The notes below the pieces were generated by a model that saw nothing but the letters and a program-made list of their open reading frames with translations, made no database searches and was not told the DNA's origin. The position numbers were made by a program, and so were the translations under genes. A stretch of 64,000 nucleotides of DNA from Pirellulales bacterium (GTDB lineage Bacteria > Planctomycetota > Planctomycetia > Pirellulales > PALSA-1355): positions 248,001 through 312,000 of the forward strand of contig JALHMI010000010.1 of NCBI GenBank assembly GCA_022844125.1, written 5' to 3'. Numbering within the stretch: position 1 is the first letter of the stretch; every line of letters starts with the position of its first letter. Shown here in pieces: positions 3,050-13,338 of this stretch.

Positions 3050-4105
3050 TCAGCAGATTCTTGGTAACGGAGCTCCCAGGGGTTCATCGAGCGGCAGGTA
3101 GCGGCCCAGCCCACGCTGAACCACAACCAGCGAAACGCGTCGCTCTTGAACTTGCCCCATGATCGCTGCCTGCCGCGCGACGGGCACGCGGCTTAGTGCC
3201 TCGACGGCGGCCCCCCCAAAGCCCTCTCGCACGGCTACGACCATTGTGCCCTCGTTGGCCACATGCAGGGGGTCAAGGCCCAGCAGTTCACACATGCCGC
3301 GCACCTCCGGCGTCACGGGCACCTCACGCTCATCGACGGCCAGCGTCCAACCGCATTTGGCTGCCCATTCTCGCAGCACCGCCGACACACCGCCGCGGGT
3401 CGCATCGCGCAGAGCGACGACGGGTACTTCCGCCCGGCGCAAGGCGTCGACTGCCGGCACCAGTGACGCACAGTCGCTGATCGGGCAAGGCTCCACGACA
3501 AATTGTTCGCGAGCTATCATCACCGCCGTGCCGTGTTGTCCGATTGTTCCGGTAACCACCAGCTCGTCACCGCATTGCAACTCGCCAGGCCCCGGCCATC
3601 GCGGTTCGAGCAGCACACCCACACCTGCGGTGTTGATAAACAAGCCATCGGCAGCGCCGCGCGGCACGACCTTCGTATCGCCCGTCACGATGGAAATGCC
3701 TATCTCTCTCGCGGCGTCGGCGACGCTCCGCAGCACACGGTCGAGCAGCGTGAGTTCGAAACCTTCCTCGATAATGAGAGAGAGGCTGAGCCATAATGGC
3801 CGAGCGCCAGAAACTGCCAGATCGTTGGTCGTGCCAATAACGGCCAGTTTACCGATGTCGCCACCAGGAAAAAACAACGGCGACACGACATAACTGTCCG
3901 TGGTGAATACAACCTGGCCCGCGAGCCGCGCGAGAATCGCGGCGTCGGCGTCTCCCGCCGGCGCGACATCGGCCAACGCCGGGAGTATACGCTCGCTCAG
4001 CAGTCGTCGCATCAAACGTCCACCCTCGCCGTGAGCAAGCGAGATGCGTCCGTCGTCGAACGTCGACGGATTCGGACAACTGTTTGATAGCTCTTCGCGT
4101 TTCAT
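3050..4105 (-). CDS. hypE: Hydrogenase maturation protein HypE
   Basis: HypE dehydrates the carbamoyl group received from HypF on its own C-terminal cysteine to a thiocyanate, the source of the iron cyanide ligands in [NiFe] hydrogenases. The 351-residue product has the AHGEGGR motif near its start, the AIR-synthase-like (PurM) fold with GDTKVVPRG, and the hallmark C-terminus PRIC with cysteine as the last residue. ATG 4105 is chosen because the homologous part begins there and a GGATGAGG ribosome-site-like stretch precedes it; it lies 10 nt after hypD. An in-frame upstream start at 4168 would overlap hypD. This is the last gene of the hydrogenase operon, next to attL. Confidence 0.95.
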   Translation of the reverse strand: MKREELSNSCPNPSTFDDGRISLAHGEGGRLMRRLLSERILPALADVAPAGDADAAILARLAGQVVFTTDSYVVSPLFFPGGDIGKLAVIGTTNDLAVSGARPLWLSLSLIIEEGFELTLLDRVLRSVADAAREIGISIVTGDTKVVPRGAADGLFINTAGVGVLLEPRWPGPGELQCGDELVVTGTIGQHGTAVMIAREQFVVEPCPISDCASLVPAVDALRRAEVPVVALRDATRGGVSAVLREWAAKCGWTLAVDEREVPVTPEVRGMCELLGLDPLHVANEGTMVVAVREGFGGAAVEALSRVPVARQAAIMGQVQERRVSLVVVQRGLGRYLPLDEPLGAPLPRIC

Positions 4106-4115
4106 CAACGGCGCC

Positions 4116-5216
4116 TCATCCGGATAAATGGTTGGCGCCGGCGTACCGGTAATAGGCTGCGCAGGCACCTTCTGATGAGACCATTGGCGCGCCTAGCGGA
4201 CGGTCGGGCGTGCAGCTCGTACCGAAACTGGGGCAAGCCTTAGGCTTGATGCGTCCGGCCAGGACGGCGCCGCTGTGGCATTCGTGGTCTTCAATCGCCG
4301 GCACCGTCGCGCCGCAAAATCGGACCTCTGCGTCGAACTGTTGAAACTCAGGACGCAGCTTCAATCCTCCGCGCGGTATCATGCCCAATCCTCGCCAGGG
4401 CCTGTCGCACACCTCGAAAACCTCGCCGACCAGCCGTTGCGCTGTCGGATTGCCCGCGTCGCGTGCCGTTCGCCGATAGCAATTGACGACTTCCGGTCGG
4501 CCAGATTCTAGCAGGCGGACGCACTGCAGGATGCCTTGCAACAAGTCGACCGGTTCGAATCCGGTCACCACCACGGGCAGCCGGTAGCGCTCGACGAAAG
4601 GCGCGTACTCCTTGCAACCGGTCACGGCGCATACGTGTCCCGCTGCCAGGAAGCCTTGTACTCGGCAGTCGGCCGACTCGACGAGGGCCTCCATGGCCGG
4701 TAAGACTCGCACGTGCGCCACCAATAAGCTGAAGTTCCGCAGGCCGAGCGCCTTTGCCTGGCGCACTGCTAGGGCCGTGGTGGGAGTGGTTGTCTCAAAA
4801 CCGACCGCAAAGAAGACAACCTGCAAGTCGGGGTTGCGGCGGGCCAGGTCAACGGCATCCATGGGAGAATAGACCGGTTTGACGCGGCCGCCGACAGCGC
4901 GCGCTTCCAGCAGGCTGCCGCGGCTGCCGGGAACCCGCAGCATGTCGCCGAAACTGGCCAGAAGCACGCCCTCGCGTAAGCTCAACTCGCGCGCGAAATC
5001 GATCGACTCCAGCGGCGATACGCACACAGGGCAGCCTGGCCCATGGATCAGATCCACAACGCCCGCCAGTTCGACGTCGATCCCATGTCGCAACAGCGAA
5101 TGCGTCTGGCCGCCACAGACTTCCATCAGTGTCCAAGGCCTGCGAGCGGCGCGGCGAATTTCCGCCAGCAGCCGCCGCGCGGCGACGGGGTCGCGGTACT
5201 CGTCGAGGAATTTCAT
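4116..5216 (-). CDS. hypD: Hydrogenase maturation protein HypD
   Basis: HypD is an iron-sulfur protein that, with HypC, forms the scaffold on which the Fe(CN)2CO unit is assembled. The 366-residue chain has the conserved MEVCGGQTHS and HGPGCPVCV motifs in its first quarter and the cysteine-rich C-terminal region expected to bind a [4Fe-4S] cluster (CHSGAVL, KACPSFGTSC, SSEGAC). The start ATG 5216 overlaps the hypC stop in an ATGA junction, implying translational coupling. Upstream in-frame codons lie inside hypC and lack homology. Confidence 0.96.
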   Translation of the reverse strand: MKFLDEYRDPVAARRLLAEIRRAARRPWTLMEVCGGQTHSLLRHGIDVELAGVVDLIHGPGCPVCVSPLESIDFARELSLREGVLLASFGDMLRVPGSRGSLLEARAVGGRVKPVYSPMDAVDLARRNPDLQVVFFAVGFETTTPTTALAVRQAKALGLRNFSLLVAHVRVLPAMEALVESADCRVQGFLAAGHVCAVTGCKEYAPFVERYRLPVVVTGFEPVDLLQGILQCVRLLESGRPEVVNCYRRTARDAGNPTAQRLVGEVFEVCDRPWRGLGMIPRGGLKLRPEFQQFDAEVRFCGATVPAIEDHECHSGAVLAGRIKPKACPSFGTSCTPDRPLGAPMVSSEGACAAYYRYAGANHLSG

Positions 5217-11351: not shown

Positions 11352-12208
11352 AGTCCCTCCACGTTCAGATACCGCTCGATCTTGTCGTAGCGAAAAACGG
11401 GACCGTCCTTACAAACGAATGCCGGGCCCAACTGGCAGTGCCCGCACAGCCCAACGGCGCATTGCATGTTGCGCTCGAGCGAAACCCAAATTTGGTCTCT
11501 ACGTAAGCCTCGCTCCAAAGCGCTGCGCACCGTATAGCGCATCATCACTTCGGGGCCGCAGAGAAACATCACTGAGTTTGCCGGCGTCAACGGGCGCAGT
11601 CGATCGACCAGCAGCGGGACGACACCCACGTCGCCCGACCAGCCGGGCTGAAACCGGTCGACGGTTGCAGACACGTTCAGTCCGCGATCCGCCCAAACGT
11701 CGTAGTCGCGCCGGTACAGGAGCATGTCGGGCGACCGTGCACCGTAAAGCAACGTTGTCCGGCCGAATCGCTTTCGCTGCGTGAAGCACGCATGAATCGC
11801 GGGTCGCAGCGGAGCCAGGCCGATACCGCCGGCGACGAGGATGACATCGGCGCCTGTGCACTCGTCCAGCGGCCAGCTCGTTCCATAGGGGCCGCGCAAG
11901 GCCAGCTCGCCCCCGACTCCGAGCCCGGCCAGCGTGCGCGTCACGTTGCCCGCCACGCGAATCGTGTGATCCCAGGTCCCGGACATCTCATTGGCCGCGC
12001 TTAGACTGATCGCAATTTCGCCGACGCCGGGCAAGTAGAGCATGTTGAACTGGCCAGGTCGAAAGCGGTAACGCTCGTTGAGCCCGGCATCCCGAAACCG
12101 CAAGTGATAAGTGGCCACCCCTGGCAATTCGGGCGTAACTGTGGCGACCTCAACGCTCTGCGCGAGCCACGGGTTGTCGACCATGGCGCTTGATGCTTGC
12201 ACGCTCAC
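11348..12208 (-). CDS. hyhG: Group 3b-type hydrogenase gamma subunit, FAD/NAD(P)-binding diaphorase
   Basis: A ferredoxin-NADP reductase-like protein that exchanges electrons with NAD(P)H. It shows the flavin motif [12 protein letters not shown] with a following SLS, the dinucleotide motif [12 protein letters not shown], the CGPEVMM motif, and a C-terminal [2Fe-2S] site ([17 protein letters not shown]). The GTG at 12208 overlaps the upstream TGA (GTGA) and gives 286 residues; ATG 12184 is the alternative start (278 residues). Together with the beta subunit it forms the electron-accepting half of the tetramer. Confidence 0.93.
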
Positions 12209-13338
12209 GCGGGGTTCTCCCGAATGGCTGCGACTTCCTCGGTCAAGTCGATTGCGACCGGGCACCAGGTGATGCATCGGCCGCAGCCGACGCATCCGGA
12301 GACGCCGAACTGATCGATCCAGGAGGCTAACTTGTGCGTGAGCCATTGGCGGTAGCGCGACCGAATCTGATTCCGCACAATGCCGCCGTTCATGTAGCTA
12401 AAGTCCCAGTTGAAGCACGTATCCCACTCACGCTCGCGCTGAACATGGTCGCCGGTCAGGTCGCTCACCTCCTTCACGGAACTGCAAAAGCAGGTCGGGC
12501 AGACCATCGTGCAGTTGGTGCAAGACAAACATCGCGTGGCGACCTCATCCCAGCGAGGATGCTCGAGATTGCTCAACAGTAGATCCCGGATGTCCTTCGT
12601 GTCCAACCCTTTCGTGATCTGATCGACGGCCTGCTGGCGGGCAGCCTCGGCCGCCAGCAGCGACCCCGGTGCTGCTCTCGTGACCGGCAAGCTCGACAGA
12701 ACGTCCGCCCCACGCTCACTGCCGACTTCGACCGTGAACGAATCCGGCAATTCCGTTAGCGCCAAGTCAAAACCCTGTGTGCAGCGCGGCCCCGTGTTCA
12801 TCGACGTGCAGAAACAAGTGCTGGCCGCCTGCGTGCAATTGACCGCGACGATCAAAGCTCGTTCGCGGCGCCGGCGATAAATCGGATCGACGTACTGCTC
12901 ATTGATGAAGGTGCGGTCCTGCACGGCGATCGCCGCCAGCTCACAGGCCCGGACGCCGAGCAGGGCATACGGTGGTTCTTGATCCGGCACCTCGCTAAAT
13001 TGCCAACCATTTGATGTCCGGTCGGCCTGGGTTACGGCCACTTGTGGCGGGAAGAAATATCGCTTTGGCGAATGCGGCCCGACAACAAAACCGAACCAGG
13101 CCTCGTCGTCGCGGCGCGTGAGGCGGTACTGGCCGCCGCTCTGCTCGTCGGTCCATCCGCGCGGGAGGTCCTCGACCCGGCGTATTTCGTCGTAGACGAT
13201 GGCCTGCTGGGCGATCGTCGGGCCGACGACGCGATATCCGCCCTGCCAGAGCTGATCGAGAAACGCCTGGAAATCCTGTTTCGCGAGCAACAGCGTTTCA
13301 CTCTGGGGCGAATTCCGCGGTCGAGCGACTGCTTTCAT
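12205..13338 (-). CDS. hyhB: Group 3b-type hydrogenase beta subunit, 4Fe-4S dicluster protein
   Basis: A 377-residue electron-transfer subunit. Two ferredoxin-type clusters are visible near the C-terminus, [12 protein letters not shown] and [12 protein letters not shown]; upstream cysteines in STCFCTSM and PRC are also conserved in this family. It bridges the small subunit to the flavin subunit. ATG 13338 is preceded by GGGAGGA at good spacing, which fixes the start against the longer open frame. It is the first structural gene of the hydrogenase operon, 22 nt after the cyclic-nucleotide-binding-domain gene. Confidence 0.93.

Follow-up and report, generated by a model that had tools for sequence, protein, structure and literature searches.

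A putative genomic island at the tRNA-Ser(CGA) gene

The stretch of DNA analysed here (the window: 64,000 nucleotides of contig JALHMI010000010.1 of a Pirellulales bacterium, assembly GCA_022844125.1) carries on its minus strand an operon predicted to encode a group 3b-type NiFe hydrogenase (hyh genes) and its maturation proteins (hyp genes). We put at about 0.7 the probability that this hyh-hyp operon is the main content of a 13.8-kb island inserted into the tRNA-Ser(CGA) gene, and that the integrase of the island has since been reduced at its N-terminal end, the island being probably fixed. The window, which contains no ambiguous bases, is part of a 317,894-bp contig, and the genome (6.44 Mb, 27 contigs) is listed with 100% completeness and 2.06% contamination. 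Comparisons were made with 397 Planctomycetia genomes at the level of the class and with only four genomes at the level of the family, the analysed genome being counted in both sets.

The ends of the island were located by a 62-nt direct repeat (97% identity) at positions 2852-2913 and 16627-16688, the spacing of which gives an island length of 13,775 bp. The right copy lies in an intact tRNA-Ser(CGA) gene (16628-16711, minus strand; detected with ARAGORN), which would be both the target gene and the right boundary. The left copy spans the tRNA gene from the anticodon loop to the 3′ end, i.e., it contains a displaced 57-nt 3′ fragment of tRNA-Ser(CGA) (2852-2908, minus strand; 100% identity over 57 nt) that would mark the left boundary, and the stop codon of hypE is found ~140 nt inside it. 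In the whole genome the repeat was present in these two copies, plus one 78%-identical match on another contig. On the outer side of the tRNA fragment there is a terminator-like segment (2803-2851, minus strand; stem-loop at 2837-2814), and a similar segment follows the intact tRNA-Ser gene of G001, a genome of the same family. A tyrosine integrase gene (15528-16598, plus strand; PF00589 and PF14659) ends ~30 nt from the tRNA-Ser gene, so that a tRNA gene at one end, its fragment at the other and an integrase gene between them were found, as in the Islander-type criteria described for tRNA-integrated genomic islands (PMC6501319). Two 11-bp repeats, TGGTTGTCAAA, at the 3′ end of the integrase gene (16568-16589, plus strand) and TTGGCTACAGATTGGCTACA at the inner left end (3023-3042, plus strand) were read from the sequence, the latter also by comparison across loci, and may be arm-type sites. 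The tetranucleotide distance of the island (0.127) was larger than that of 31/31 comparison stretches (maximum 0.121), a weak test in which overlapping stretches also formed the reference. No relaxase or mating-pair genes were seen among the named genes, which leave ~340 nt of 2909-16627 uncovered, relaxase models not having been searched singly.

In the proposed mechanism, a tRNA-targeting tyrosine integrase would have recombined an attachment site that mimicked the 3′ part of the tRNA with the chromosomal tRNA-Ser gene. This insertion would have left the intact tRNA gene on the right and the displaced 57-nt fragment on the left, and the conserved N-terminal stretch of the integrase would have been lost later, leaving the island probably fixed. 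We infer in this way that the island was inserted as a unit, in which direction it moved and that it lost its mobility.

Integrase relatives at E <= 1e-30 were found in 63 of the 397 class genomes, the analysed one included. A tRNA gene (Ser, Thr, Arg, Lys, Gln, Phe or Asp) was present in 14 of the 19 integrase loci listed from other genomes, and where there was one it lay in the 3′ flank of the integrase gene; the two relatives that come next in identity after the closest one (59% and 53%) adjoin tRNA-Ser(GGA). Full-length relatives start with a conserved stretch such as KRRGRGEGSIYQRADGRW, which the frame in the window does not have, and upstream the frame is closed by a stop codon. A search with residues 1-95 of the frames of the relatives detected no clear copy of this N-terminal stretch in 14000-16700. 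Weak N-terminal matches were seen near the start of the integrase, the best of which (L172, E 0.013) crosses a stop codon, so that the start region may be partly diverged and not deleted. The catalytic domain is kept, as are the catalytic motifs in the alignment. The integrase thus appears to have lost a DNA-binding part, and the absence of the conserved stretch argues that the island is probably fixed. As a side observation, loci L162 to L180 represent a planctomycete integrase family that is mostly tRNA-adjacent and in which the 3′ ends of the genes often carry two direct repeats ~11-13 bp apart; the repeat word varies by member (GGCTACA, TTGTCAA, GGTGTCAAC, AGGGCGTA and others). A scan of viral contigs for the integrase gave four pattern matches and no relative, and among phage records three had short matches only (28-29% identity).

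The flanks were then compared with those of the relatives. Both G001 and G003 show synteny with the window from 20809 onwards, in the right flank of tRNA-Ser. The gene for the hydrogenase large subunit, HyhL, has its sole copy in G001 on another contig, and no HyhL match was obtained in G002 and G003. When the outer flanks of the island were joined, a continuous 136-bp match (86.8%) to the tRNA-Ser gene and terminator of G001 ran across the junction, compared with matches of 107 bp (left) and 86 bp (right) for the filled junctions. Separately, a large autotransporter-type protein (PF03797, PATR repeats) is encoded at 16822-20415 (minus strand), between tRNA-Ser and the syntenic right flank; the G001 homologue of 20809-21210 is only ~400 bp from the tRNA, so that the autotransporter-type gene is an extra difference at the tRNA-Ser locus.

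The closest hydrogenase locus and gene trees

The closest hyh locus is that of G001 (HyhL 76% identical), in which a block of a gene for a cNMP-binding-domain protein, hyhBGSL and the protease gene adjoins tRNA-Arg(CCG); no hyp genes were found in the 9 kb that follow the block. The neighbours of the hyh genes in G001 (RarD-like and DUF2071-like, names read from the sequence) and the tRNA-Arg gene are also present in the analysed genome, on contig C2, the identity of the proteins being 85% and 60%, and the next shared gene lies ~1.4 kb further on at the C2 site and roughly 20 kb further on in G001. The hyh genes are absent at the reciprocal site in both genomes, i.e., at the tRNA-Arg site of the analysed genome and at the tRNA-Ser site of G001. 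It is conceivable, if rather doubtful, that a complete, maturation-competent group 3b cassette moves between tRNA sites within one planctomycete family, being at tRNA-Ser(CGA) here and, as a block without hyp, beside tRNA-Arg(CCG) in the nearest relative. A tRNA-Arg island with attachment repeats in G001 was considered as a candidate and rejected, as neither a repeat of the tRNA-Arg 3′ end nor a related integrase was found in the 40 kb searched.

In the HyhL tree, the window groups with G001 and G137 (support 100/93), the order within this group being weak (96/34). In the HypD tree, the protein of the window is placed with operon-linked HypD (with G191, 99/97), and HypD of G001, G002 and G137 falls in another clade, formed largely by detached genes; no claim of transfer is drawn from the HypD and HyhL groupings. 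As an observation in its own right, most HypD proteins of the class belong either to a group linked to the operon or to a detached clade, and it is the detached type that occurs in the genomes whose hyh genes are closest to those of the window. HypD was present in 18 of the 21 genomes checked (not in G003, G209 and G050), a set of which 16 had been picked for the lack of a visible hyp block at the hyh locus (some of these loci being cut by a contig end) and five for other reasons. One locus of G137 (L202, contig C160, 7244-13939) looks like a detached maturation set of hypF, hypD, hypE, protease and hypB genes without structural genes; hypD was identified in the HypD check, and the other names were read from the sequence. 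A HyhL scan of genome contigs gave four loci, one of them at 35% identity, and among plasmid records 13 more distant HyhL relatives (48-53% identity) were found, so that such genes do occur on plasmids, none of them close.

Alternative origins of the locus

Several observations weigh against the insertion of the operon as a tRNA-Ser island. The closest integrase relative (L162, 62-63%) has no tRNA gene in the 3.9 kb read, and none was present in the pieces read of four other loci. Beyond the tRNA, the match of the joined flanks to G001 rests on ~48 nt of terminator, and further to the left the flanks of G000, G001 and G003 differ, save for weak protein-kinase matches. This difference fits a hot spot, but no relative therefore shows a complete empty site with both flanks. 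At the G001 hyh site the tRNA-Arg repeat and a related integrase are missing, so that insertion there and loss here are indistinguishable, and the grouping of HyhL with the same-family G001 and with G137 shows no long-distance transfer. The assembly consists of 27 contigs and may contain misassemblies. Furthermore, contig C23 of G001 carries a counterpart (78% identity) of segment 2748-3042, in which the left tRNA fragment lies. This counterpart is an att-like segment of 296 bp (L123, 11804-12099), in which a tRNA-Ser 3′ fragment has GGCTACA-type repeats on both sides. Neither an intact tRNA, in the 20 kb read, nor HyhL was found near it, which indicates that segments of this kind can occur away from their tRNA; the C23 segment also matches the joined flanks (165 columns, 81%), without the 5′ half of the tRNA. 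Finally, the repeats at the left end (TTGGCTACA) differ from those of the integrase (TTGTCAA), so that the two ends may stem from different elements and the island may be composite.

The last two points lead to a reading that overlaps with that of a single insertion and that we regard as a real, though the lesser, possibility, namely that at least two tRNA-Ser elements were accreted in tandem. The left segment with its GGCTACA repeats could then belong to one element, the integrase of which was lost, and the truncated integrase with TTGTCAA could belong to another; the hydrogenase operon might have been brought by one of them or trapped between them. That the left fragment is flanked on either side by GGCTACA-type repeats, like in an attP site or a tandem junction, would fit this, together with the unlike repeats at the two ends and the second occurrence of the left segment in G001. 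The left segment was matched in 234 of the 246 genomes of the order, as a rule over the tRNA part, and most of the loci displayed were intact tRNAs, but tRNA-Ser 3′ fragments without the 5′ half were found in six other genomes (G001 on C23, G427, G449, G371, G367 and G455), in the same state as the left copy of the window. The island also has no replication-type genes, and the surroundings of two integrase relatives do have Prim-Pol (G395) and ParB-methylase genes (G105 and G395). However, a second displaced tRNA fragment was not found in the genome. An integrase remnant to the left of 2748 was likewise looked for and rejected, none being found in window 1-3100 or in the 40 kb to its left.

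It could also be argued that the hydrogenase genes were always beside tRNA-Ser, that the fragment at 2852 is a relic of separate origin and that only a small integrase element was inserted. The second occurrence of the left segment, in G001, with neither HyhL nor an intact tRNA near it, would agree with a relic of this kind, and the HyhL tree fits descent within the family. We consider this resident operon unlikely, as it would make a coincidence of the direct orientation of the fragment, of its location ~140 nt beyond the end of hypE and of the presence of an integrase gene next to the tRNA. In addition, the right flank of tRNA-Ser is preserved in G001, which has HyhL at another locus, and in G003, which has none, and the closest relative of the operon is at another locus, the counterpart of which in the analysed genome is without the operon. 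The insertion of the operon as an island at tRNA-Ser(CGA) is thus the reading that we prefer.

The hyh-hyp operon

Eleven genes, hyhB-G-S-L, the protease gene and hypA-B-F-C-D-E, were found on the minus strand from 13338 to 3050 without gaps of more than 22 nt; profile matches and the sequence bear out the initial annotation in these genes, their order and the gap limit. That annotation had left out a gene for a cNMP-binding-domain protein (13361-13867, minus strand; PF00027, start codon uncertain), which lies 22 nt upstream of hyhB, is the source of the 22-nt gap and is probably the first gene of the operon.

The start codons used below are of our own choice, and all the genes of the operon are on the minus strand. 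The structural genes are hyhB (12205-13338), for the Fe-S subunit (beta; PF17179 Fer4_22, 107 bits), hyhG (11348-12208), for the FAD/NAD(P) subunit (gamma; NF006220, NF040835 and AsrB models, below the cut-offs), hyhS (10566-11351), for the small subunit (delta; NF040831 and NF040836, below the cut-offs), and hyhL (9254-10552), for the NiFe large subunit (alpha; sulfhydrogenase alpha models NF040828 and NF040832, below the equivalog cut-offs). They are followed by the gene for the hydrogenase maturation protease (8811-9257; TIGR00072, 58.3 bits, above the cut-off; PF01750, 24.1 bits) and by hypA (8453-8818), the product of which scored 84.8 bits against a cut-off of 28.9 with PF01155 and 57.7 bits, below the cut-off of 88.1, with the TIGR model. 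The remaining products all scored above the cut-offs: hypB (7782-8456; TIGR00073, 227.7 bits), hypF (5470-7797, ATG at 7797; TIGR00143, 676 bits), hypC (5213-5479; TIGR00074, 64 bits, N-terminus MCLAIPGK), hypD (4116-5216; TIGR00075, 446 bits) and hypE (3050-4105, with an alternative GTG start at 4168; TIGR02124, 380.5 bits).

With these starts, 4-nt overlaps of the GTGA type join hyhB to hyhG and hypA to hypB, and 4-nt overlaps of the ATGA type join hyhG to hyhS, hyhL to the protease gene and hypC to hypD. Longer overlaps were found between the protease gene and hypA (8 nt), hypB and hypF (16 nt) and hypF and hypC (10 nt); hyhS and hyhL are separated by 13 nt, and the hypD/hypE junction is either a 10-nt gap (ATG at 4105) or a 53-nt overlap (GTG at 4168). 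Hence 8 of the 10 internal junctions overlap (9 if hypE starts at the GTG), and the claim that most of them are ATGA or GTGA overlaps has to be lowered to one half (5/10).

This arrangement suggests that the genes are co-transcribed as one unit. A scan of 2700-14500 for sigma-70-type promoters, a search that planctomycete promoters may not fit, found none on the operon strand and two sites, both on the plus strand. Terminator-like sites in the same region, both strands taken together, numbered 7, against a mean of 9.1 in shuffled sequence, so that internal promoters or terminators splitting the unit, which the initial annotation had named as a ground for refutation, did not appear. Nor did a second complete hyp set, its other ground: searches of the whole genome yielded one HypA, one HypD and one NiFe large subunit, HypB, C, E and F not having been searched outside the operon, and the genome-wide matches for the large subunit are two stretches of one gene.

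Gene order and compactness across the Planctomycetia

HyhL matches at E <= 0.001 were obtained in 163 of the 397 class genomes, including distant hydrogenases of ~30% identity. From the match listings, 60 hyh loci (identity about 51-76%) were picked by hand, a non-random set in which 9/60 end at contig ends. The full order BGSL-protease-ABFCDE was found at 26 of these 60 loci, in six families. Five more keep this order as far as hypD, a same-strand hypE not being detected there, eight have linked hyp genes in another or partial order, and 12 have no same-strand hyp block with at least 8.5 kb available downstream; one of these 12 (L095) carries hypC, D, E and F on the opposite strand beside hyhL. 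A relative of the cNMP gene immediately precedes hyhB at 48 loci. Junctions were compared with a mechanical measure that takes the start codon nearest the preceding stop, is biased toward tightness in the window and its relatives equally, and gives values for the window that differ slightly from those with hand-chosen starts. By this measure 7 of 11 junctions overlap in the window, and from 2 to 10 in the 26 same-order relatives. Gaps of more than 22 nt were absent in 11 of the 26 (L050 and L061 among them, the two loci in which one junction each was unscored), and the other 15 have at least one larger gap. The gene order is thus common in the class, and the window is at the tight end without being exceptional; the idea that the gene order or the overlaps of this genome stand out was rejected.

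An integrase of the window family was not found at the 60 other hyh loci, where other integrase families were not searched; three short matches there, all from one query with a kinase-like start of its frame, were read as parts of kinases. The same layout at loci without such an integrase means that compactness itself is no evidence for transfer. The initial annotation had held the operon to be tighter than the usual arrangement and had seen in this selection for transfer or for fixed stoichiometry. In its favour are the overlap of 8/10 internal junctions and the larger gap in 15/26 of the same-order relatives, but the shared order at 26/60 loci, the equally gap-free state of 11/26 and the lack of a window-family integrase near them make a specially selected compactness in this lineage very improbable. 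What stands of it is the idea of transfer, which gains structural support from the tRNA-Ser island with its integrase and not from the tightness of the genes.

The predicted enzyme and the other genes

All four subunit types of a group 3b enzyme (Fe-S beta, FAD/NAD gamma, small delta and NiFe large alpha) are encoded. The best relatives of HyhL in the PDB are alpha chains of sulfhydrogenase 1 (E 2.7e-66, nearly full length), and its best NCBIfam model is ShyA, with 277 bits against an equivalog cut-off of 700, which makes HyhL a relative within the group and not a ShyA equivalog itself. The translation contains RICGIC and DPCISCATH, followed by a 10-residue tail; we take the two motifs to be the N- and C-terminal CxxC nickel ligands and the tail to be putatively cleavable. 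Judged from its set of subunits and from its nearest relatives of known structure, the enzyme is probably an NAD(P)-linked NiFe hydrogenase of group 3b type; it would exchange electrons between H2 and NAD(P)H, with redox balance under low oxygen as the likely role. The dos regulon of Mycobacterium smegmatis includes the Hyh enzyme, which is reported to matter in hypoxia (PMC8125079), and by analogy the enzyme described here may have a similar role. Group 3b enzymes of nitrifiers are described as functionally uncharacterised, and the maturation protease as absent from some of the genomes (PMC12342949).

Between the operon and the integrase gene there are, on the minus strand, a fragment of 75 aa that resembles universal stress proteins (13977-14204; an open reading frame, family name read from the sequence), csrA (14204-14398; PF02599) and a gene for a baeRF family 10 protein (14456-15598; PF18854), the 5′ end of which, with its putative ATG at 15598, overlaps the integrase reading frame. 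Their place alongside the operon is only suggestive of a low-oxygen or dormancy theme. The C-terminal region of the baeRF family 10 protein (release-factor-like) gave a rubredoxin-like match below the model cut-off. To the left of the island, on the plus strand, the window encodes a pyridine-nucleotide-disulfide reductase with a C-terminal rhodanese domain (133-1824), a 71% relative of which is found in G003 on a contig other than the tRNA-Ser contig of that genome, and a truncated alpha-acetolactate decarboxylase (1775-2263; of the 219 profile positions only 1-66 are present, matched by the C-terminal end of a 162-aa open reading frame).

Relation to known systems

With a protease of its own and the complete set of six Hyp proteins, the operon could make hydrogenase activity possible in a host that does not have these genes; nickel uptake and similar needs are outside its gene set. 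If the island reading is true, the uneven presence of group 3b enzymes in planctomycetes has a physical vehicle, tRNA-targeted elements, and with the structural, protease and hyp genes in one 10-kb block a single event could suffice to confer hydrogenase activity. Compactness is common in the class and is no sign of transfer by itself, whereas attachment sites can serve as one.

The operon is ordinary and its location is what deserves attention, hydrogenase islands being already known elsewhere. Among papers searched by title and the start of the abstract, with subscription journals mostly outside the search, none was recognised that deals with a planctomycete group 3b operon or island. The Planctomycetia loci with a cNMP gene, hyhBGSL, the protease gene and hypABFCDE are identical to the window in their hyh-protease-hyp order (26/60), and they differ from it in that an integrase of the window family was near none of the 60. 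In Nitrosococcus oceani AFC132, a hypAFCDE block lies beside group 3b structural genes, in an order found in several other bacteria, and horizontal acquisition was inferred by the authors; there, unlike in the window, the hyp genes precede the structural genes and hypB is outside the block, and the available text describes no tRNA island with attachment repeats (PMC7285500). Whole hydrogenase clusters that are carried by islands or plasmids and whose context varies between related strains are also known from cluster II of Hydrogenovibrio SP-41 (PMC6501319) and from an island and plasmid of Alteromonas (PMC5217437), but these are Proteobacteria, and in SP-41 the enzymes are of groups 1d and 2b and lie within a 62.6-kb strain-specific region. 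Islands CMGI-2 and CMGI-3 of Cupriavidus metallidurans resemble the window in carrying hydrogenase and hyp genes (hox and hyp, with hypABFCDE on CMGI-3), and the genes that allow growth on H2 and CO2 reportedly lie exclusively on these islands; unlike the island proposed here, they are Tn4371-family elements with trb/tra-like clusters, they encode membrane-bound and soluble hydrogenases, and the capture of these genes was ascribed to insertion sequences (PMC2864759).

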